From Tsuneonella suprasediminis (lineage in GTDB: Bacteria; Pseudomonadota; Alphaproteobacteria; Sphingomonadales; Sphingomonadaceae), in contig NZ_RAHJ01000011.1 in NCBI RefSeq assembly GCF_003605755.1, forward strand, positions 1 through 64,000: DNA of 64,000 bases. Direction: 5' to 3'. Below the pieces are notes generated by a model, which worked only from the letters and a program-made list of their open reading frames with translations, searched no databases and was not told the origin of the DNA. Positions 2,118 through 56,206 of the stretch are shown here, one piece after another; position 1 is the first letter of the stretch, and the number at the start of each line of letters is the position of its first letter. The translations under genes and the position numbers were made by a program.

Positions 2118-4100
2118 ATGACGACACGAATCAAGCAAACGCGAGCGATAACGGTCGACCAGAACGGCAGCCTGCTCCCCATAGGTGCGCTGGGACTCCT
2201 AATTCTAGCCGGATTGATTGGTGGCGGCGTGGATATGAGCCGCGCATACAAGGCGCAAACCCGCCTGCAAGCGGCGTGCGACGCGGGCGTTCTGGCCGGT
2301 CGCAAAGCCGTGATGACAAAAGGGTTCGACGACTTCGCCAAGGGTGAGGCGAAAGCCTATTTTCAGAACAACTTCAACGCTGTTGAGCAAGATGCGACCG
2401 GCACTGTCTTCACCCCCAAATCTAACGACGACGGTAATACAATCGAAGGGGTGGCATCGACCAATGTATCGTCTGTCATCATGCAGATCTTCGGCTTCAA
2501 GACGCTGGCAGTCAGCGTCTCATGCTCGGCGTCGATGGGTGTTGGCAACAGCGACGTAACGATGGTGCTCGACAGCACCGGATCGATGGATGATCGAATA
2601 GGGTGGAGCGGCGATAAAAAAATCGACATGCTGCGAAACGCGATGAAGAACTTTTACGATACTGTGCAAAAATCAGTATCGGGTTCGAACGCACGCGTTC
2701 GCTACGCATTTGTCCCCTACAGTTCCTCCATCAATGTCGGCCAATTGATATACGACAAAAATCCGAACTGGCTGGTCGACGATTATTGGGTTCAGTCACG
2801 CAAGCCACAATACGAGCGAATTTTCGACCATTGGGGCGATCCTGTTTACAGCAACGAAACGGGCGAAAGTTCCGAAAACATCGACTCGACCCAAGACTAC
2901 AGCTCGACTGAGCATAAAAATCGTAACGACTGTAAAGCCAGCCTGCCGGCAGACACCAATTGGCAAAACAGTGGTGGCACCACGACAAGTACCGAGGGGC
3001 CATCGGTCAATAGCGCAGGACAACTGGTCACCACCACAACTACCGCACAAAAACAGACTCGCAAGAGCTACACCTGCGAAGAGCGGACGTCCGGATCGTG
3101 GTGGTGGACCAAGAAGTATTATGTCGCGGTGGTATTGAATTATTCGCGATATTTGTACGATCACCTCTATAAAATTCAGGATCCAGTTTATGTCGACGGG
3201 CCCAATCAGGTGGGCTGGACGTATCAGCGACTGAAATACGATGTTCGGGATTACAAGGCCTTCAAGACCGTCACGACAAAGACCGGGAATGACTATTGGG
3301 GGAAAGCCGTCGATGTATCTTCCAAATGGGAAGGATGCATTGAGGAACGTAAAACTGTTCCTGCATCCGAGTTCGGGTTTGAGAAATCGACCGGCATCAC
3401 CCCAAGCGATGCACTCGACCTGAACATCGATGCAGCGCCAGATGCCTCTGATGACAACACGCGTTGGGCACCCATGTGGCCGGAGGTCGCATATCGTCGT
3501 ACCGTTCGGGCAAATTCAAGCACGCTGACGAGCGCCGATGTTTCCTCATACGGCCAACCTCAAAAACCGGGGATGTCCTTTTGCCCGTACAAGTCCCAGC
3601 TGCTCAAAACCATGAGCAAGTCTGACTTTTACGATTATGCAGATTCTCTCATCGCAGTGGGCAATACGTACCACGATCTTGGAATACTGTGGGGCGCACG
3701 CATAAGTTCACCTCAGGGCATCTTTGCAGATACTGTGAACCAATCTCCTGCCAACGGCGGCAATGTGTCGCGCCATATGATCTTTATGACCGATGGCGCG
3801 ATGGTTCCCAATGTGCAGATTCAGAGCTCCTATGGCATCGAGTTCTTTGACCGCCGGGTTACTGGCGATGGCAACAGCATGCTCACCGCTCGTCACACAT
3901 CACGGTTTCTCACTTTATGCCAGGCTGTGAAGGCAAAAGGTATTCGCTTGTGGGTGATCGCATTTTCGACTGGCCTCACCAACGACCTGTCGAACTGTGC
4001 GTCGGACAACAGCGCCTTCACCGCCAACGATGCCGACGAACTGAACCACGCATTTCAGGAAATCGCCAAACAAGTGGGCGAATTGCGAGTGACGCAATGA
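2118..4100 (+). CDS. TadG-like protein with von Willebrand factor A domain
   Basis: A 660-residue envelope protein. Its N-terminus (residues about 15-60) has a prepilin-like hydrophobic helix, LPIGALGLLILAGLIGGGVD, followed by RAYKAQTRLQAACDAGVLAG, as in TadG/TadE minor pseudopilins of Flp pili. A VWA domain starts near residue 147: VTMVLDSTGSMDD contains the MIDAS DxSxS motif (D152), and a later strand IFMTDGAMVPN is typical of the same fold. About 250 residues of Tyr/Ser/Thr-rich insert sit between the two halves. The start ATG at 2118 follows GGGGCAATGAG. Its stop overlaps the next start (ATGA at 4097-4100), so the three genes are translationally coupled. It probably acts at the inner membrane/periplasm. 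No tad ATPase, secretin or prepilin peptidase is present here. Confidence 0.85.
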   Translation: MTTRIKQTRAITVDQNGSLLPIGALGLLILAGLIGGGVDMSRAYKAQTRLQAACDAGVLAGRKAVMTKGFDDFAKGEAKAYFQNNFNAVEQDATGTVFTPKSNDDGNTIEGVASTNVSSVIMQIFGFKTLAVSVSCSASMGVGNSDVTMVLDSTGSMDDRIGWSGDKKIDMLRNAMKNFYDTVQKSVSGSNARVRYAFVPYSSSINVGQLIYDKNPNWLVDDYWVQSRKPQYERIFDHWGDPVYSNETGESSENIDSTQDYSSTEHKNRNDCKASLPADTNWQNSGGTTTSTEGPSVNSAGQLVTTTTTAQKQTRKSYTCEERTSGSWWWTKKYYVAVVLNYSRYLYDHLYKIQDPVYVDGPNQVGWTYQRLKYDVRDYKAFKTVTTKTGNDYWGKAVDVSSKWEGCIEERKTVPASEFGFEKSTGITPSDALDLNIDAAPDASDDNTRWAPMWPEVAYRRTVRANSSTLTSADVSSYGQPQKPGMSFCPYKSQLLKTMSKSDFYDYADSLIAVGNTYHDLGILWGARISSPQGIFADTVNQSPANGGNVSRHMIFMTDGAMVPNVQIQSSYGIEFFDRRVTGDGNSMLTARHTSRFLTLCQAVKAKGIRLWVIAFSTGLTNDLSNCASDNSAFTANDADELNHAFQEIAKQVGELRVTQ

Positions 4101-4708
4101 TCGGGAATCCCCCTGCACACCTGCCCTACGGAATGCGCGAGTTGCACGCGAATGATCGCGGCGTGACGATCATTGAATTCGCCCTGCTTGCACCTGTATT
4201 TCTTGTCATGCTCGTCGGGACGCTCGATCTGGGGCAGATGATCTATGGTAACGCTGTGCTGAACGGCGCAGTGGAATCGGCCGCGCGCAGTTCGTCGCTC
4301 GAAACGGGCGACATTACTGTGGCCGATCAAATGGTGGAAGATCAGGTTTCCTATGTCTTGCCCGGCGTAGATGTGAAATCGACCCGCACCAGCTACTATG
4401 ACTTCGCGGATATTGGCCGGGCAGAGCAATGGAACGATGCCAACGGTGACGGCACCTGTAACAATGGCGAAGCTTATGTCGATGAAAACGGGAATAATTC
4501 CTGGGATGAAGATATCGGTGTTTCCGGCAACGGCGGTGCCAACGATGTTGTCATCTATACGGTGAAGGCCACTTACGATCCGCTGTTCAAAGTGCCATTT
4601 ATGCCGGAAGCATGGGCCAAACGCACGCTGACATCGTCTGCGGTCCGCAAGAACCAGCCATTCGCTGACCAGACCGAGTATGGCTCCACTGCGGGGACTT
4701 GCGACTGA
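4097..4708 (+). CDS. TadE-family pseudopilin-like protein
   Basis: A 203-residue protein whose start ATG at 4097 overlaps the stop of the VWA gene by four bases; an open frame further upstream lies wholly inside that gene and is ignored. Residues about 20-50 carry the TadE signature RGVTIIEFALLAPVFLVMLV, with the conserved Glu five residues into the hydrophobic helix where prepilin peptidase-type proteins have it. The C-terminal half contains Asp/Asn/Gly-rich runs (DANGDGTCNNGEA, DENGNNSWDEDIG) resembling calcium-binding loops, which is unusual for a TadE protein. It is expected to be anchored in the inner membrane with a periplasmic domain. Likely co-translated with its neighbours. Confidence 0.85.
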   Translation: MIGNPPAHLPYGMRELHANDRGVTIIEFALLAPVFLVMLVGTLDLGQMIYGNAVLNGAVESAARSSSLETGDITVADQMVEDQVSYVLPGVDVKSTRTSYYDFADIGRAEQWNDANGDGTCNNGEAYVDENGNNSWDEDIGVSGNGGANDVVIYTVKATYDPLFKVPFMPEAWAKRTLTSSAVRKNQPFADQTEYGSTAGTCD

Positions 4709-47305: not shown

Positions 47306-50161
47306 ATGGGTAACGAAGCACACGATTTCCTCCCTGACGGTCAGGATTCCGGGCCGCAACCCGGTCCGTCCTGGGCCAACCCGCGCTGGCCGCTGGTCGG
47401 CGGTGAGAGCGAGGACGATCTGACGCAGGCGCTCGATCCGACAGCGATGAAGCTGGCGGTAAAAGCGGCTGCGACCAAAACGGGCAAGCAGATGGACGAA
47501 AAGGCGGTCGAACAGGCCGCCGACGATTCGATCCGCGCGATGATGCTCGTCCGCACGTATCGGGTACGCGGCCATCTTGCCGCTAACCTCGATCCGCTGG
47601 GCCTTTCCAGCCATGAGCTGCCTGCCGACCTGACGCCCGAATTCCACGGCTTTTCCGGCGCCGCGCTCGATCGCCCGGTTTATGTCGGCGGGACGCTGGG
47701 CCTCGAATGGACCACCATCGGCGAACTCGTGGCGATCCTGCGCAAGAATTATTGCGGCAAGGTCGGCTTCGAATACATGCACATCGCCGATGTGGAGGAA
47801 CGCCGCTTCATTCAGGACCGGATCGAAGGGATCGACAAAGTCATCACCTTCACCCCGGAAGGCAAGCGCGCGATTCTGGCGGCAGTGATCCGCGGCGAAC
47901 AATACGAAGATTTCCTCGGCAAAAAATACGTCGGCACCAAGCGGTTCGGCCTCGACGGCGGGGAATCGATGATCCCCGCACTCGAAGCGGTGATCAAGTA
48001 TGGCGGCCAGATGGGCGTGCGCGAAATCATTTACGGGATGGCTCACCGTGGCCGTCTGAACGTGCTCGCCAACGTGATGGCCAAGCCGTATCGCGTGATC
48101 TTCCACGAATTTTCCGGCGGCAGCGCCAACCCCGAAGATGTCGGCGGTTCGGGCGATGTGAAATACCACCTCGGCACCAGCACCGACCGCGAATTCGACG
48201 GGATCAAGGTTCACATGAGCCTGGTGCCCAACCCCAGCCATCTGGAAGCGGTGGACCCCGTCGTGCTCGGCAAGACCCGCGCGCAACAGGCCATTCGCGA
48301 CGATCTGAAGAAGCACGAACAGGTTCTGCCTGTGCTGATCCACGGCGATGCGGCATTTGCGGGTCAGGGCATCGTGTGGGAATGTTTCGGCTTTTCCGGG
48401 GTGCGCGGGTATAACACCGGCGGTTGCATCCATTTCGTGATCAACAACCAGATCGGCTTTACCACCAGCCCGAAATTCGCCCGCTCCTCGCCCTACCCCT
48501 CCGATGTGGCGAAGGGCGTTCAGGCTCCGATCCTGCACGTCAACGGCGACGATCCCGAAGCGGTGACGTTCGCCTGCAAGATGGCGATCGAATACCGCCA
48601 GACATTCGGGCGCGATATCGTGATCGACATGTGGTGCTATCGCCGGTTCGGCCACAACGAAGGGGACGAACCGAGCTTTACCCAGCCGCTGATGTACGAC
48701 CGGATTCGTCAGCACCCCAAAGTCAGCGTGCTCTATTCCGATCGCCTGCTGAACGAAGGCATGATCGAAAAGGGCGATCCCGATGCCATGCGCGAAGAAT
48801 TCCGTGCGCATCTGGATGAACAGTTCGACGGGGCTGCGGATTACAAGCCAAATGCAGCCGACTGGTTCGGTGGCCGCTGGGCTGGGCTGAACAAGCCCGC
48901 CGATTCCGAAGAAGCGCGCCGCAATGTCGATACTGCGATCTCGCGCAAGCTGTTCGACAGCCTCGGCCGCACTCTTACGACTGTGCCCGACGATCTGACG
49001 ATCCACAAAACGCTCGGCCGCGTGCTCGATGCCAAGCGCAAGATGTTCGACACCGGCGAAGGGTTCGACTGGGCCACCGCCGAGGCGCTCGCTTACGGCA
49101 GTCTGGTGACCGAAGGATATGGCGTGCGCCTGTCCGGCCAGGATTCTGGGCGCGGCACGTTCAGCCAGCGTCACGCGGTGTGGATCGATCAGAAGACCGA
49201 AGACAAGTACATTCCGCTGTGCCAGCTGCCGCATGGCAAGTTCGAGGTGTATGACAGCCCGCTGTCCGAATACGGCGTGCTCGGCTTCGAATACGGGTTC
49301 GCGATGGCCGATCCCAAATCGCTGGTCTTGTGGGAGGCCCAGTTTGGCGATTTCGCCAACGGGGCGCAGATCATCATCGATCAGTTCATCGCCAGTGGCG
49401 AAGCCAAATGGTTGCGCGCCAACGGTTTGGTGATGCTCCTGCCGCACGGCTACGAAGGTCAGGGGCCGGAACACAGCTCGGCCCGGCTCGAACGATTCCT
49501 GCAACTGTGCGCCAACGATAACATTCAGGTGTGCAACATCACCGTGCCGGCGAACTATTTCCATGTTCTCCGCCGCCAGATGCTGCGTCCGTTCCGCAAA
49601 CCGCTGATTATCGTGACTCCCAAGAGCCTGCTTCGCCACCCGATGGCGAAAAGCACTGTCGAGGAATTCACGGGTGAAAGCCATTTCAAGCGGATTATGT
49701 CGGATACGGCCGAAATTGCAGACACCAAGGTGAAACGCCTTGTGCTCTGTTCGGGCAAGGTCGCCTACGACCTGATCGAGAAGCGCGACGAGGAAGGGTT
49801 GGAAGACGTCTCTATCGTCCGCCTCGAACAGCTTTATCCCTTCCCCGGTGAGCCGTTGGTGATCCGCCTGAAACGGATGAAGAACCTCGAAACGGTCGTC
49901 TGGTGTCAGGAAGAGCCGAAAAACAACGGCGCATGGTTCTTCGTTGAAAGCAAGATCGAAGAGGCGTTGAACGAAGCCGGGCATACCGGGATGCGCCCGT
50001 GTTATGCCGGACGCGAAGTGGCGGCATCGCCTGCCACCGGCCTTGCCAAACGCCATGTCGAACAACAGCGGTCGCTGGTGCAGGTCGCACTTGGCCTTGC
50101 CGATGGCGGCGCGGATGCCCGCGCAAAGCTCAAGGCATCCGCTCGCAAGAAACCCGCCTGA
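47306..50161 (+). CDS. sucA: 2-oxoglutarate dehydrogenase E1 component
   Basis: A 951-residue ThDP enzyme. The N-terminal [12 protein letters not shown]2-binding-like start is followed by [17 protein letters not shown], the ThDP motif [13 protein letters not shown] and [10 protein letters not shown] region, and a C-terminal transketolase-like domain with [20 protein letters not shown]. It decarboxylates 2-oxoglutarate and transfers the succinyl group to the lipoyl E2. sucB starts 17 bp after its stop. Confidence 0.98.
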
Positions 50162-51420: not shown

Positions 51421-51495
51421 TCCATTTGGTTCGCTGCCCGCAGCGACCCCAGACAAATGCCCTGCGCTGGATACAAGGGGCGAACGGAGTTGAAA

Positions 51496-52893
51496 ATGTC
51501 GGACTACGATTACGACGTCCTGATTATCGGTGCTGGACCCGGCGGCTATGTCGCGGCGATCCGTGCGGCGCAGCTTGGCCTGAAAACCGCCTGTGCCGAA
51601 GGACGCGAAACGCTGGGCGGCACCTGCCTCAACGTCGGTTGCATTCCGTCAAAGGCGATGCTCCATGCCAGCGAGTATTTCGAAGCGGCCAAGGGTGGCG
51701 CGATGGCCGAAATGGGCATTGAGGTGACCCCTAAGCTCAACCTCGGTCAGATGCACAAACAGCGGATCGACGCCGTGGGCGGCCTGACGAAGGGCGTCGA
51801 ATTTCTGTTCAAGAAGAACAAGGTCGACTGGCTGAAAGGCTACGCCACCTTCAAGGACGCGCACAGCGTGGAAGTGAACGGCGAAACCAAAACCGCCAAG
51901 ACCGTGGTGATCGCCACCGGTTCGTCGGTCACTCCGCTGCCGGGTGTCGAAGTGGACAATGCCAAAGGCGTGGTTGTCGATTCGACCGGCGCGCTCGAAC
52001 TGCCAGCCGTCCCCAAGAAGATGGTCGTGATCGGCGGCGGTGTGATCGGGCTGGAACTCGGCTCGGTCTGGCGCCGTCTGGGCGCGGAAGTCACCGTGGT
52101 CGAATTCCTCGATCAAATCCTGCCCGGCATGGACGCCGATGTGCGCAAGGAAGCGCAGAAAATCTTCAAGAAACAGGGCATCGAATTCAAGCTCGGCACC
52201 AAAGTCACCGGCTGCACGGTGAAGGGCAAGAAAGCCACGCTGACGCTGGAACCGGCCGCTGGCGGCGATGCGGAAACGCTGGAGGCCGATTGCGTGCTGG
52301 TGTCGATCGGACGCAAGCCCAATACCGATGGCCTCGGCCTCGACAAGATCGGTCTGGAAACCAACAAGCGTGGCCAGATCGAAGTCGACGGTGAATTCCG
52401 CACCGCTGTCGATGGTGTGCGCGCCATTGGCGATGTCATCCCCGGCCCCATGCTGGCGCACAAGGCGGAAGACGAAGGCATCGCCGTGGCCGAATGGATC
52501 GCCGGACAGACCGGCATCGTCAATCACGACGTGATCCCCAGTGTGGTCTATACATGGCCGGAAATCGCTGGCGTCGGCCTGACCGAAGAGGCCGCGAAGG
52601 AACGCGGCGCAGTGAAAACCAGCAAGTTCCCGATGCTGGCCAACAGCCGCGCGAAGACCAACCACGAACCCGATGGCTTCGTGAAAGTCATCGCCGACGC
52701 TGAAACCGACCGCGTGCTAGGCGTGTGGATCATTGCCTCCGTCGCCGGAACAATGATCGCGGAGGCCGCACTGGGCATGGAATTCGGCGCGACCAGCGAA
52801 GACATCGCCTATACCTGCCACGCGCACCCGACCCATTCGGAAGCGATCAAGGAAGCGGCAATGGGCGTGATGGGGAAACCGATCCACACCTGA
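51496..52893 (+). CDS. lpdA: dihydrolipoyl dehydrogenase (E3)
   Basis: A 465-residue flavoprotein that reoxidises the dihydrolipoyl group of E2. FAD-binding GAGPGGYVAAIRAAQLG and the redox disulfide GGTCLNVGCIPSKAML are at the N-terminus; GGGVIGLELGSVWRRLG is the NAD-binding region, and the dimerisation motif CHAHPTHSEAIKEAAM with catalytic His-Glu ends the protein. It closes the operon, 76 bp after sucB. Start chosen at 51496, with AACGGAGTTGAAA upstream. Confidence 0.98.
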   Translation: MSDYDYDVLIIGAGPGGYVAAIRAAQLGLKTACAEGRETLGGTCLNVGCIPSKAMLHASEYFEAAKGGAMAEMGIEVTPKLNLGQMHKQRIDAVGGLTKGVEFLFKKNKVDWLKGYATFKDAHSVEVNGETKTAKTVVIATGSSVTPLPGVEVDNAKGVVVDSTGALELPAVPKKMVVIGGGVIGLELGSVWRRLGAEVTVVEFLDQILPGMDADVRKEAQKIFKKQGIEFKLGTKVTGCTVKGKKATLTLEPAAGGDAETLEADCVLVSIGRKPNTDGLGLDKIGLETNKRGQIEVDGEFRTAVDGVRAIGDVIPGPMLAHKAEDEGIAVAEWIAGQTGIVNHDVIPSVVYTWPEIAGVGLTEEAAKERGAVKTSKFPMLANSRAKTNHEPDGFVKVIADAETDRVLGVWIIASVAGTMIAEAALGMEFGATSEDIAYTCHAHPTHSEAIKEAAMGVMGKPIHT

Positions 52894-52920
52894 TTTATTA
52901 AGGGCTATCGCGACATAGGA

Positions 52921-53727
52921 TTGCACCGCCCCATCTCCGTCTGCGCTATCGCGCTGTCCGTGACACTGCTTGTCAGCGGGTGGTGGATGGTGGGCGCGGG
53001 TGCACCTCGCATTTATGCCATTGTGAACCTTGCCGCCGTGGTCGCGGGGGTGCCACTCGCGCTCGCAATCGCACGGGTTCCTGCGAATGCTGCGCTGATC
53101 GCCCCCGCAGTTCTAGGCGCGCTGGCGCTGATGTTCGGCCCTTCCAGCGAAGGAGTCCATCGGTGGGTCGCTCTGGGCGGGCTGAGCATACATGCGACAA
53201 TGCTGGCAGGGCCGTGTTTCGCGGTGGCATTCCAGCGGATTGGCGGATGGCCGGCCTCCATCGCGGCAGTCGCCTTCGCTGCTGTCACCGCTTTCCAACC
53301 CGATTTTGGAATGGCGCTTGCACTGACTTGCAGCGTTGCAGCGACTCTGGTCGTCCGGCGCGATTTGCCAACTCTGGCTGCCTTTGCCTGCGCGGCATTG
53401 GCGACGGTGTGGACAGCATGGCGCGGCGATCCGCTGTCAGCCGTGCCGTTCGTGGAAGGCGTAGTACAGCGCATGGCGAGCGAACACAGCGCAGCCGCAC
53501 TGATTTCGCTGGCATTACTGGCGCTTGCGACAGCAGCCCCCACGCTTTCGCGCGAAGGGCGATACGCAGGCGGACTTGCATTCGCCGGATATTCTGCCGG
53601 ACTTGTCGGCGCATCGCTGATTGGCCCCTTCCCCGCACCGCTGGTCGGATATGGCGCCGCCCCCGTTCTCGGCTACTGTCTGGCTCTCGGCCTGCTCTTC
53701 AGGCCGTTGAGCGCCACCGACCGCTAG
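52921..53727 (+). CDS. SEDS (FtsW/RodA)-like membrane protein, reduced
   Basis: A 268-residue multi-pass protein, TTG start at 52921. It shows the SEDS layout in short form: HRWVALGGLSI (80-90, cf. RWIxLG), AVTAFQPDFGMALAL (121-135, cf. QPDFGT), then PFPAPLVGYGAAPVLGYCLA (236-255, cf. LPLISYGGSS). Eight or nine hydrophobic segments instead of ten. The catalytic Asp loop (TDFIFA in FtsW/RodA) is not found: the matching region reads MASEHSAAALISLALL. This suggests an inactive relative that could regulate or bind cell-wall synthases. It follows lpdA by 27 bp. SEDS assignment is an inference from scattered motifs. Confidence 0.7.
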   Translation: MHRPISVCAIALSVTLLVSGWWMVGAGAPRIYAIVNLAAVVAGVPLALAIARVPANAALIAPAVLGALALMFGPSSEGVHRWVALGGLSIHATMLAGPCFAVAFQRIGGWPASIAAVAFAAVTAFQPDFGMALALTCSVAATLVVRRDLPTLAAFACAALATVWTAWRGDPLSAVPFVEGVVQRMASEHSAAALISLALLALATAAPTLSREGRYAGGLAFAGYSAGLVGASLIGPFPAPLVGYGAAPVLGYCLALGLLFRPLSATDR

Positions 53728-53779
53728 GAACTGTCCGCTAACTCGCGTATTGATAGGCGAAGGGGAACAGGGGCACGTT

Positions 53780-55264
53780 ATGGCGAACGGCTGGGTTCAC
53801 AGGCTGGCGATGGCTCTCTGCGGCACCATGGCGCTGGCCGGTTGCAAGCAATCGAGCGAACCGTTCGCGCCCCCTCCCCGCGCCAACGATGCTATCGAAG
53901 TCCCCGATGAAAATTCGGTCATCGCGGTGCCTGTTAAGGCTGACTTGTCGAAACTGGTCGATAATGTCGCGCGCGAAATTCCGCGCACACTCTACCAGAT
54001 TGATCGCAAGGATCAGACGTGCCTCGCGTCGAAAAAGGTCAAAGTCGCTTTCGTCAAACTCAAGACTCCCAAGATCAAATGCGACATCGTCGGCACTGTC
54101 ACGCGCGGCAAAATGGCCATTGCCGGGCGCGGGCGCGATATCGTCGTGACAATGCCAATCCACGCCGAAGTGCACGCCAAGGATATTGCAGGCATTCTCA
54201 AGCAGGAAACCGCCACTGCCGATGCCAATGTACGCGCTGTGATCCGGCTGTCGATCGATCGGCAGTGGAACCCGCGGGGCAAGATCGCCATCCGGTACGA
54301 CTGGACCGACACGCCGCACATCGACTTCCTCGGCCAGCGGATCGAATTCACCAAAGATGCCGACAAAGAACTGAAAAGCGTAATCGCCAAGCTCGAACGC
54401 AGCCTTCCGCGAGAGCTGGAGAAAGTCCACTTGCGCCGCGATATCGAGCGATTGTGGGGCGAAGCGTTCACTGTCCTTCAGCTCAACGAGAAAAACCCGC
54501 CAGTGTGGATGCGGATCGAGCCGCAGCAATTGCAGTATGGCGGCTATTCACTTTCCGGCAAAACGCTGAATCTCAAGCTGGGAATGACCGCCCGAACCCA
54601 GACTTTCGTTGGCGACAAGCCTGCACCCCCGGACAAGAAACCACTGCCACCACGCACACCTTTGTCGGAAACGCCCGGCAAGCTGGCATTCTTCATCCCG
54701 GTCGTGGCCGATTACGCAGAGCTGGAACCCGTGATTGCCAGGGCACTGAACAAGCGGGCTGCCCGACCATTCAAAGTGCCCGGCATCGGCCCGGTGCAGG
54801 CGCGATTCGGGAAGATAGAGGTTTACGGATCCACCGGCGGCCGCGTGGCCGTGGGCGCCACCTTCACGGCACAGCGGACCGACGGGAAATATGGCGCGGC
54901 CAACGGAACGGTCTGGCTCACCGGCGTGCCGCATAACCAGCCGAATTCACGCAAAGTGTCGTTCAGCGATGTCTCGGTGACGGGCGACAGCGACCGGATG
55001 GAAACCGATATCCTGATGCGGCTTGCCAGTGCGCCGGGATATCAGCAGGCAATCGCCGATGCCCTGACACAGAATTTCGAAGGCGATTTCGATGATCTGA
55101 AAGGCAAGATCGAACGCGCCATCGCTCGCCGCCGCGAAGGCGATCTGGTAATTCACGCCCGGATCGATGAAGTGAACACCGGAGAGCTGAAGGCGGCCGG
55201 GCGCGGGCTGTATCTTCCGGTGCAGGGCTCCGCGACGACATCGATCACATTGACCGCCCGCTGA
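53780..55264 (+). CDS. DUF4403 family lipoprotein-like protein
   Basis: A 494-residue envelope protein. The ATG at 53780 gives MANGWVHRLAMALCGTMALA, then GC (lipobox LAGC), a lipoprotein signal. The remainder, beta-rich, resembles DUF4403: ATADANVRAVIRLSIDRQWN and LPVQGSATTSITLTAR near the end, with repeated Ig-like or BPI-like beta segments. A TTG earlier start is possible. Function unknown; DUF4403 proteins have been proposed to be envelope lipid carriers only by fold similarity, which is not shown here. Confidence 0.8.
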   Translation: MANGWVHRLAMALCGTMALAGCKQSSEPFAPPPRANDAIEVPDENSVIAVPVKADLSKLVDNVAREIPRTLYQIDRKDQTCLASKKVKVAFVKLKTPKIKCDIVGTVTRGKMAIAGRGRDIVVTMPIHAEVHAKDIAGILKQETATADANVRAVIRLSIDRQWNPRGKIAIRYDWTDTPHIDFLGQRIEFTKDADKELKSVIAKLERSLPRELEKVHLRRDIERLWGEAFTVLQLNEKNPPVWMRIEPQQLQYGGYSLSGKTLNLKLGMTARTQTFVGDKPAPPDKKPLPPRTPLSETPGKLAFFIPVVADYAELEPVIARALNKRAARPFKVPGIGPVQARFGKIEVYGSTGGRVAVGATFTAQRTDGKYGAANGTVWLTGVPHNQPNSRKVSFSDVSVTGDSDRMETDILMRLASAPGYQQAIADALTQNFEGDFDDLKGKIERAIARRREGDLVIHARIDEVNTGELKAAGRGLYLPVQGSATTSITLTAR

Positions 55265-55537: not shown

Positions 55538-56206
55538 ATGATTGGCCCTGCCCTGCCCCCGTTTCTCGACCTTGCCGGCACGGCGATATTCGCGCTTACC
55601 GGTGCACTGCTGGCCGCCAGACTACGCCAGACATTCGTGACGATGGCGTTCTTCGCGCTGGTCACCGGCGTGGGCGGCGGATCGTTGCGGGATATGTTGC
55701 TGGGCGCGCCGGCCTTCTGGTTGCACAGTCCGTGGGTGGCGGCGGTGATCTTCGCAACTGCGCTGGTGGCGTGGTTCACTCCGCGCCGGTGGTGGGACAA
55801 CGAATTGCTGGAATGGGCCGATGCGATGGGGCTGGCCGCTTTCGCGGTGCTGGGTGCAGCCAAGGCGCTGGCGTTTGGTGTCGCTCCATTGCCTGCTGCG
55901 GTGCTGGGCATCGTCACCGGCTGCGCGGGCGGCGTGATCCGCGATGTAATCGCAGGCGAACCCTCTATCCTGATGCGGCCAGAGCTATACGTGACGGCAG
56001 CGGCGCTATCGGCAATCCTGACAGTCGGCGGCGAAGTGGCGGGTCTGCCTGCCGTTATCGCGTGGAGTGTAGCATGGGCCGCCGGTTTCGCGCTGCGCGG
56101 GACAGCAATCCGCTGGCGGCTCGCCTTGCCATCATACCGAGAGGGCAAGGAGCGAGACAAGGTCAGTGAGCCGGCAGATCCTCCACCCCCGAAGAACGAT
56201 CGTTAG
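55538..56206 (+). CDS. trimeric intracellular cation channel family protein (UPF0126/YadS)
   Basis: A 222-residue inner-membrane protein with two copies of a three-helix unit. GVGGGSLRDMLLGA and CAGGVIRDVIAGEP are the two conserved Gly-Gly-x-x-Arg-Asp signatures, one per repeat. Prokaryotic TRIC proteins form homotrimeric potassium-permeable channels. ATG at 55538 follows AAAGGCGAGCAC. The C-terminal tail is basic and hydrophilic. No linked gene suggests a specific role. The 273 bp before it (55265-55537) contain nothing I can call. Confidence 0.9.
   Translation: MIGPALPPFLDLAGTAIFALTGALLAARLRQTFVTMAFFALVTGVGGGSLRDMLLGAPAFWLHSPWVAAVIFATALVAWFTPRRWWDNELLEWADAMGLAAFAVLGAAKALAFGVAPLPAAVLGIVTGCAGGVIRDVIAGEPSILMRPELYVTAAALSAILTVGGEVAGLPAVIAWSVAWAAGFALRGTAIRWRLALPSYREGKERDKVSEPADPPPPKNDR

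Follow-up and report, generated by a model that had tools for sequence, protein, structure and literature searches.

A compact, strongly diverged relative of the SEDS glycosyltransferases that appears to keep an acid at the catalytic position of a shortened loop 4 in Tsuneonella suprasediminis

The window analysed here, 64,000 nucleotides of a Tsuneonella suprasediminis contig, carries on its + strand a gene for a compact protein of 268 residues (52921..53727), with the length and reading frame given in the initial annotation. The gene starts with TTG; upstream of this codon the frame is open for just nine codons and holds no alternative start, and the next in-frame start on the + strand is a GTG at 52960. 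The nearest relative, a gene of Tsuneonella flava whose protein is 84% identical, has its TTG at the same place, which, together with the short open frame upstream, makes the TTG at 52921 a plausible start. Only 27 bases separate it from the stop codon of lpd (51457..52893, + strand; dihydrolipoyl dehydrogenase, TIGR01350, E 1.4e-162), the last gene of sucA-sucB-lpd; sucA at 47306, sucB at about 50179, lpd and the compact gene follow one another in line. A simple consensus scan of the + strand from 52700 to 54100 found neither a sigma-70-like promoter nor a terminator-like site, and we infer that the gene is probably co-transcribed with sucA-sucB-lpd. Downstream on the + strand lie a DUF4403 (PF14356) gene at 53750-55264 and, further on, a PF03458 'Gly_transporter' gene at 55538-56206, a relative of which is also found near the family gene in other loci. 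Two further SEDS genes in the genome pass the Pfam cut-off.

SEDS proteins polymerise the cell wall, are essential and serve as drug targets, and three segments of the compact protein, HRWVALGG (residues 80-87), QPDFGMAL (126-133) and PLVGYGAAP (240-248), had been read as their marks; these motifs are real and have SEDS counterparts. Scanned alone, the window protein scores 11.4 bits against Pfam PF01098 (E 0.16, residues 32-165 only) and does not reach the curated cut-off of 26.4 bits, and the NCBIfam RodA model gives E 1.4; two of the eight relatives scanned with their N-terminal prefix pass the Pfam cut-off (L134 at 28.4 bits and L068 at 27.2 bits). Fifteen SEDS proteins are matched by a profile built from ten relatives, and in nine of them the N- and C-terminal halves are hit separately and in collinear order; comparison of 64 family members with 15 SEDS proteins by hhalign gives a probability of 98.2% in local (E 2.9e-14) and 99.3% in global alignment, recovering the SEDS relation first suggested by the motifs. 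Searched against PDB sequences, a 61-row family profile finds E. coli and Thermus RodA at E 1.4e-8 to 7.6e-8 and FtsW at about 0.006, with noise starting at 0.03; all of these matches run through the N-terminal part of the profile (9-177). The family set was reduced from 74 matches to 64 unique sequences by removal of contained copies, and the broken or cut copies L005, L021 and L015 stand outside it. Row set A2 comprises 60 of the 64 plus the window row (leaving out L003, which is the window itself, L023, L036 and L075), A4 the window and 53 of 68 loci (15 in-frame extended or near copies omitted), and A5 19 of the 22 PadR loci. Judged by these profile comparisons, the compact protein is homologous to SEDS proteins beyond chance; by strict motif and cut-off, it should not be named FtsW or RodA.

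The AlphaFold2 model of the window protein, computed from 54 rows (pLDDT 91.9, pTM 0.91), contains ten long helices and one short one, with a beta-hairpin predicted at residues 82-91. Its closest match by VIA-align is RodA 6bar, with Z 20.2 and rmsd 3.2 over 254 of the 268 residues, and FtsW (Z 19.5 and 18.5) and E. coli RodA (Z 15.8) are matched as well, in line with the label 'SEDS-like' that the protein had been given. WaaL 7tpg (Z 9.8, rmsd 4.7, 233 residues aligned) is the sole non-SEDS family above Z 8, the remaining families all lying below 5 and those missing from the match list being uninformative. Below E 0.01, Foldseek returns no entries other than those of RodA (TM at most 0.69, E 8.4e-5). 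The model of a PadR-coupled relative (L134, pLDDT 86.3) gives a similar ranking over its residues 61-333, with RodA at Z 19.5, WaaL at 10.9 and the next family at 5.5. A ten-helix SEDS (GT-C_B) fold is therefore predicted for the compact protein with near certainty.

The catalytic Asp of SEDS proteins sits in loop 4, which in FtsW also bears residues through which the PBP activates the enzyme. What is left of this large periplasmic loop (ECL4) in the window protein spans residues 169-189 (53425..53487, + strand), between TM7 and TM8. The distance from D128 of the QPD motif to E179 is 48-60 residues in the family (median 51, n=103), compared with 95-103 residues from the QPD Asp to the catalytic Asp in SEDS proteins (median 96, n=15), so about half of the stretch holding the loop is gone. 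Joint alignments of the compact family with SEDS proteins show that TDFIFA, the SGG..G.G stretch and the long periplasmic loop 4 are absent; the window protein has PFVEGV where SEDS proteins have TDFIFA, and thus lacks an H[TS]D[FY]xF motif. Within PFVEGV, Glu179 (53455..53457, + strand) aligns with the catalytic Asp of SEDS proteins (D262 in E. coli RodA), a position assigned by alignment and not from coordinates. It does so in both joint alignments of 64 members and 15 SEDS proteins, and when the alignment was repeated 24 times with six settings and random subsets, the register held in 21 and was off once by +2 and twice by -3. The column is acidic in all 106 members, three distant ones included (Glu in 80, Asp in 26); among the 103 rows there are 77 Glu and 26 Asp, with Glu in 55/55 lpd-linked rows and Asp in 21 of 22 PadR-linked rows. 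In the 26 Asp members, Val or Ile precedes the acid in place of Thr/Ser. We gave no weight to the register in HMMER alignments to PDB chains, whose second stretches score below zero bits: for 8tj3, gap-free extension of this stretch pairs the family Glu with the residue that we take to be D262, and for 6bas (the D255A mutant, likewise <0 bits) the family Glu lies three residues later. The initial annotation, which described a protein lacking the catalytic loop because TDFIFA and its Asp had been replaced, was thus right about the missing letters and a loop stretch cut to roughly half; the catalytic column itself still holds an acid, Glu179 here, in every member examined. The alignments lend good support to a catalytic acid kept throughout the compact family, and the view that it was lost is rejected on the acidic column and the register.

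Of the residues that FtsW and RodA require, several are retained in the family and others are missing. R81-W82 (53161..53166, + strand), the 'RW' of periplasmic loop 2 and by our own mapping presumably R101-W102 of E. coli RodA, is present in 106/106 rows. In the QPD motif, Q126-P127-D128 (53296..53304, + strand), D128 is found in 106/106, Gln in 105/106 and Pro in 103/106 rows. In P238-A-P-L-V-G243-Y244-G245 (53632..53655, + strand), the counterpart of the SEDS 'PLISYGG', P238 and G243 are present in 106/106 rows, Y244 in 91/103 and G245 in 98/103. Hence R81, W82, D128, P238 and G243 are invariant in 106 rows, including the three distant members. Published mutant positions were mapped onto the family by alignment and, in part, by motif position, and the equivalences are our own assignment. 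The family retains the counterparts of FtsW W138, of FtsW D297/RodA D262 (as Glu or Asp), of Y379 (91/103) and of G380 (98/103), without the His-Thr pair before the acid. The corresponding E. coli FtsW mutants W138A, D297A, Y379A and G380A fail to complement, and H295A and T296A are reported to do so (PMC8765783). For RodA, D262A and P257A are reported as dead and E258A, H260A and T261S as working (PMC10449877). The counterpart of P257, position 174, is Pro in 49/103 and Ala in 48/103 rows, the window protein having Ala; position 89, which corresponds to R109, is mixed and not conserved, and the R210 counterpart is lost in the family. The FtsW study also lists dominant-negative mutations at Y242/R243, Q147 and G199 (PMC8765783); in the family, the stretch with Y242/R243 is deleted, the Q147 counterpart is His in 50, Gln in 38 and Asn in 15 of 106 rows, and the G199 counterpart is mostly Ala or Ser, with Gly in 10/64 and also in the window protein. 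The excerpts of the literature consulted describe no Glu-for-Asp swap in a SEDS protein. In the families of CAZy clan GT-C1, as summarised in a survey, an Asp or Glu occupies the acceptor-activating place and an Arg serves the diphosphate (PMC10920833).

In a quick tree, the compact family is split from SEDS proteins by a long branch with 100% support, and its standing as a clade separate from FtsW and RodA is well supported, which agrees with the earlier suggestion of a family of its own. Within the same GTDB family, 103 of 397 genomes encode a member, with E-values of at most 1.6e-11 (107 matches, four genomes contributing two rows); in the genus, 5 of 11 genomes do, one of the five copies being broken. 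Among the matches listed, those next in rank (from E 1.3e-10) align chiefly over the N-terminal half and come from ORFs 371-656 residues long; six of these, L087-L092, all have the H-T-D motif. Among 385 genomes of the class, searched at E 1e-12, full-length matches are only two, both in the same GTDB family, and 41 other genomes match part of the profile in ORFs of at least SEDS length; among 296 genomes of the order, searched at E 1e-18, all 62 matches fall inside the GTDB family. Among 398 genomes of the phylum, at E 1e-18, at least six match, three of them outside the GTDB family and one of these three in another class; six is a lower bound because this search, which used a PadR-type profile, missed the known members G011 and G151. 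The compact family thus occurs rarely beyond its GTDB family. Named carriers include Tsuneonella, Novosphingobium, Sphingomonas, Qipengyuania, Aurantiacibacter, Citromicrobium and Brevundimonas, together with MAGs named Caulobacter and Phenylobacterium. The members on contigs labelled as Gemmatimonadetes and Rhodospirillaceae MAGs (L128, L131) are placed by the tree amid PadR-type rows of sphingomonads, and these contigs are probably misbinned. The family gene is frame-broken in two genomes (G006, loci L005/L021, and G423:C47), through sequencing error or gene decay, and G291 has two copies.

Across 102 loci (68 + 34, some representing the same genome under two names, e.g., L073 and L190, and with the loci of short flanks, L003-L052, left out), lpd lies within three genes upstream in 55 and a PadR-type gene directly upstream in 22; six genes follow pth, four follow a 2-oxoacid dehydrogenase E2-like gene and 15 lie elsewhere. 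Neighbour names at these loci are presumptive, assigned by eye, except for lpd, whose window copy was scanned. All PadR rows fall inside one 34-row clade of the quick tree (support 96) and most lpd rows in a 44-row clade (support 98). The window sequence, T. flava and one Novosphingobium sequence form a separate group (support 96) nearer the pth and E2 loci, so that the lpd linkage occurs in several clades.

The PadR-coupled form is longer and differently organised. One of its 22 regulators was scanned and matches Pfam PadR (L131, E 2.3e-12); 17 of the 22 cluster by BLAST, and the other five are recognised by a shared motif. At 22/22 loci, the stop of the PadR-type gene overlaps the in-frame start of the SEDS-like gene by four bases. 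The resulting proteins have 357-399 residues, of which roughly 70-90 form an N-terminal prefix; this prefix matches no NCBIfam model in six proteins and no Pfam model in eight, nor in two pieces scanned alone. A separate small gene between padR and the SEDS-like gene was considered and rejected, since this segment is in frame with the SEDS part at 22/22 loci. By eye, a TTGAC resembling a -35 box lies ahead of the PadR-type gene at 21 of 22 loci (TTGAT in L188) and runs into a palindrome; the palindrome is close to AAATCTACNTANGTAGATTT at 21 of the 22, including L161, L138 and L131, and a different one is present in L065. The palindrome is a likely operator through which PadR would repress its own gene. 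Control of this kind was rejected for the window gene: the palindrome is absent from the window (up to 1 mismatch) and the box-plus-palindrome pattern from the genome (up to 3 mismatches), no PadR gene lies beside the window gene, and the one PadR match of the genome (E <= 0.001) is on another contig.

Among known systems, the compact protein most resembles RodA/MrdB and FtsW (PF01098, CAZy GT119), sharing the ten-helix fold throughout, RW, QPD, (S/G)YG and the acid in the catalytic column. It differs from them in its length of 268 residues, in the spacing from QPD to the acid (about 51 vs 96 residues), in the Glu, and in having neither TDFIFA nor SGG..G.G. The PadR-coupled relatives recall Lmo0421 of Listeria monocytogenes, which one study describes as a non-canonical FtsW/RodA homologue of weak similarity in a sigC-lstR(PadR) operon (PMC6624303). 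Lmo0421 reportedly replaced neither FtsW nor RodA and altered none of the antibiotic responses tested; its authors note a spontaneous Lmo0421 mutation in a wall-less L-form and suggest an antibiotic-resistant back-up role (PMC6624303). A second study gives its length as 416 residues and sets it aside (PMC6686043). The likeness, drawn by description alone, lies in the SEDS relation, in the PadR coupling of the relatives and in comparable lengths (357-399 vs 416 residues); unlike this Firmicutes gene, the window gene has no adjacent PadR gene. The Listeria PadR coupling thereby gains an alphaproteobacterial parallel. WaaL (GT121) and the inverting BP-Pols of clan GT-C1 share the broad fold class and, according to the survey cited above, the clan pattern of Asp/Glu plus Arg (PMC10920833), whereas the compact protein is clearly closer to RodA than to WaaL (Z 20.2 vs 9.8). 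That survey places a His at the acceptor-activating position of WaaL (PMC10920833); the SEDS-aligned column of the family, which comes from a SEDS and not a WaaL alignment, holds Glu or Asp, not His. A search of titles and abstract beginnings, with subscription journals and preprints outside its scope, yielded no published description of the compact family among the matches listed.

The best explanation of these data is that the protein belongs to a compact branch of the SEDS glycosyltransferases that has diverged strongly. Since the loop is cut down, yet the acid at the catalytic position is kept, there is a fair chance that the protein is an enzyme with a specialised role and not a dead one. 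As a plausible mechanism, Glu179 (Asp in the PadR-coupled relatives) would be the base by which the sugar acceptor is activated, and Arg81 would help to hold the diphosphate-lipid-linked donor, which would make the protein a membrane glycosyltransferase of GT-C1 type that works on the outer side of the inner membrane. With the loop 4 part carrying YQ..R and SGG..G.G gone, its substrate is probably not lipid II polymerised together with a class B PBP; it would probably be another lipid-linked envelope glycan, or the protein would carry out a modification reaction. In the relatives whose start is overlapped by a PadR-type gene, behind a palindrome by a -35-like box, the enzyme might provide a switched accessory function; in the lineage of the window, the gene would instead be expressed from its place after sucA-sucB-lpd. 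We put the probability that the compact protein is a minimal GT-C-type glycosyltransferase whose lipid-linked substrate is not PBP-coupled lipid II at about one half. Only tentatively do we extend this to a class of minimal SEDS-fold glycosyltransferases in sphingomonads and some other Pseudomonadota, which would dispense with most of the loop 4 domain and with a class B PBP, act with a Glu/Asp base on some lipid-linked glycan that is not lipid II, and include an inducible, PadR-coupled form of 357-399 residues with an N-terminal helical prefix. A natural SEDS fold that has lost much of loop 4 and kept the acid would reveal the purpose of the loop and the set of residues sufficient for the chemistry, and would widen the range of the SEDS fold beyond FtsW, RodA and SpoVE.

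A role as regulator or sensor, counting two forms together, retains a large minority of the probability. The protein could be a pseudoenzyme or regulator that keeps the SEDS fold without transferring sugars and that would tune or protect wall synthesis by binding either a SEDS/PBP partner or a lipid-linked precursor. This would be consistent with the missing core of loop 4 and the missing R109 and R210 counterparts, with the loss of the P257 counterpart in half of the members, and with the Listeria homologue, which is PadR-linked, shows no FtsW/RodA function and is mutated in an L-form (PMC6624303). We regard such a role as possible, if doubtful, given that the acid of the catalytic column (106/106), RW and the QPD Asp are kept, residues that a pure binder would not obviously need; the regulator of cell wall synthesis that the initial annotation considered gains no positive support here, and the retained active-site residues speak mildly against a pure regulator. 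PadR-type coupling with the palindrome at 22 of 102 loci and the patchy presence in 103 of 397 genomes would also suit an envelope-stress or drug-response protein under PadR, acting as precursor binder or exporter, or as an antibiotic-resistant back-up, without glycan chemistry of its own. This is unlikely, as 55 of the 102 loci, and likewise that of the window, follow lpd with equally conserved active-site residues, and the palindrome is absent from the window and the box-plus-palindrome pattern from its genome.

Patchiness, which extends to the genus (5/11, one broken), and the frame-broken copies in G006 and G423 might instead reflect a decaying, dispensable paralogue without function, and the dN/dS of 0.34 between the window gene and that of T. 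flava is not very low. Values of 0.08-0.40 across 15 chosen close pairs and several positions invariant in 106 sequences make such decay very improbable. That an unrelated multi-span membrane protein resembles SEDS proteins by chance, as the sub-threshold single-sequence Pfam score might suggest, is rejected as having a negligible probability in view of the profile-profile E-value, the PDB matches ahead of noise and the fold match to RodA (Z 20.2, unrelated folds <5).

The less frequent surroundings of the family gene have features of their own. In L056, L070, L074, L078, L082 and L086, the genes preceding it are, by names given by eye, presumably rplY (L25) and pth. In L081, L083, L084 and L085, it follows the E2-like gene, a second lipoyl-enzyme neighbour that could be due to chance. 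In L199, a distant member at 3246-4230, in which QPD reads QHD, lies between what look by eye like ruvB and a ybgC-like gene, perhaps at the head of a tol-pal region.
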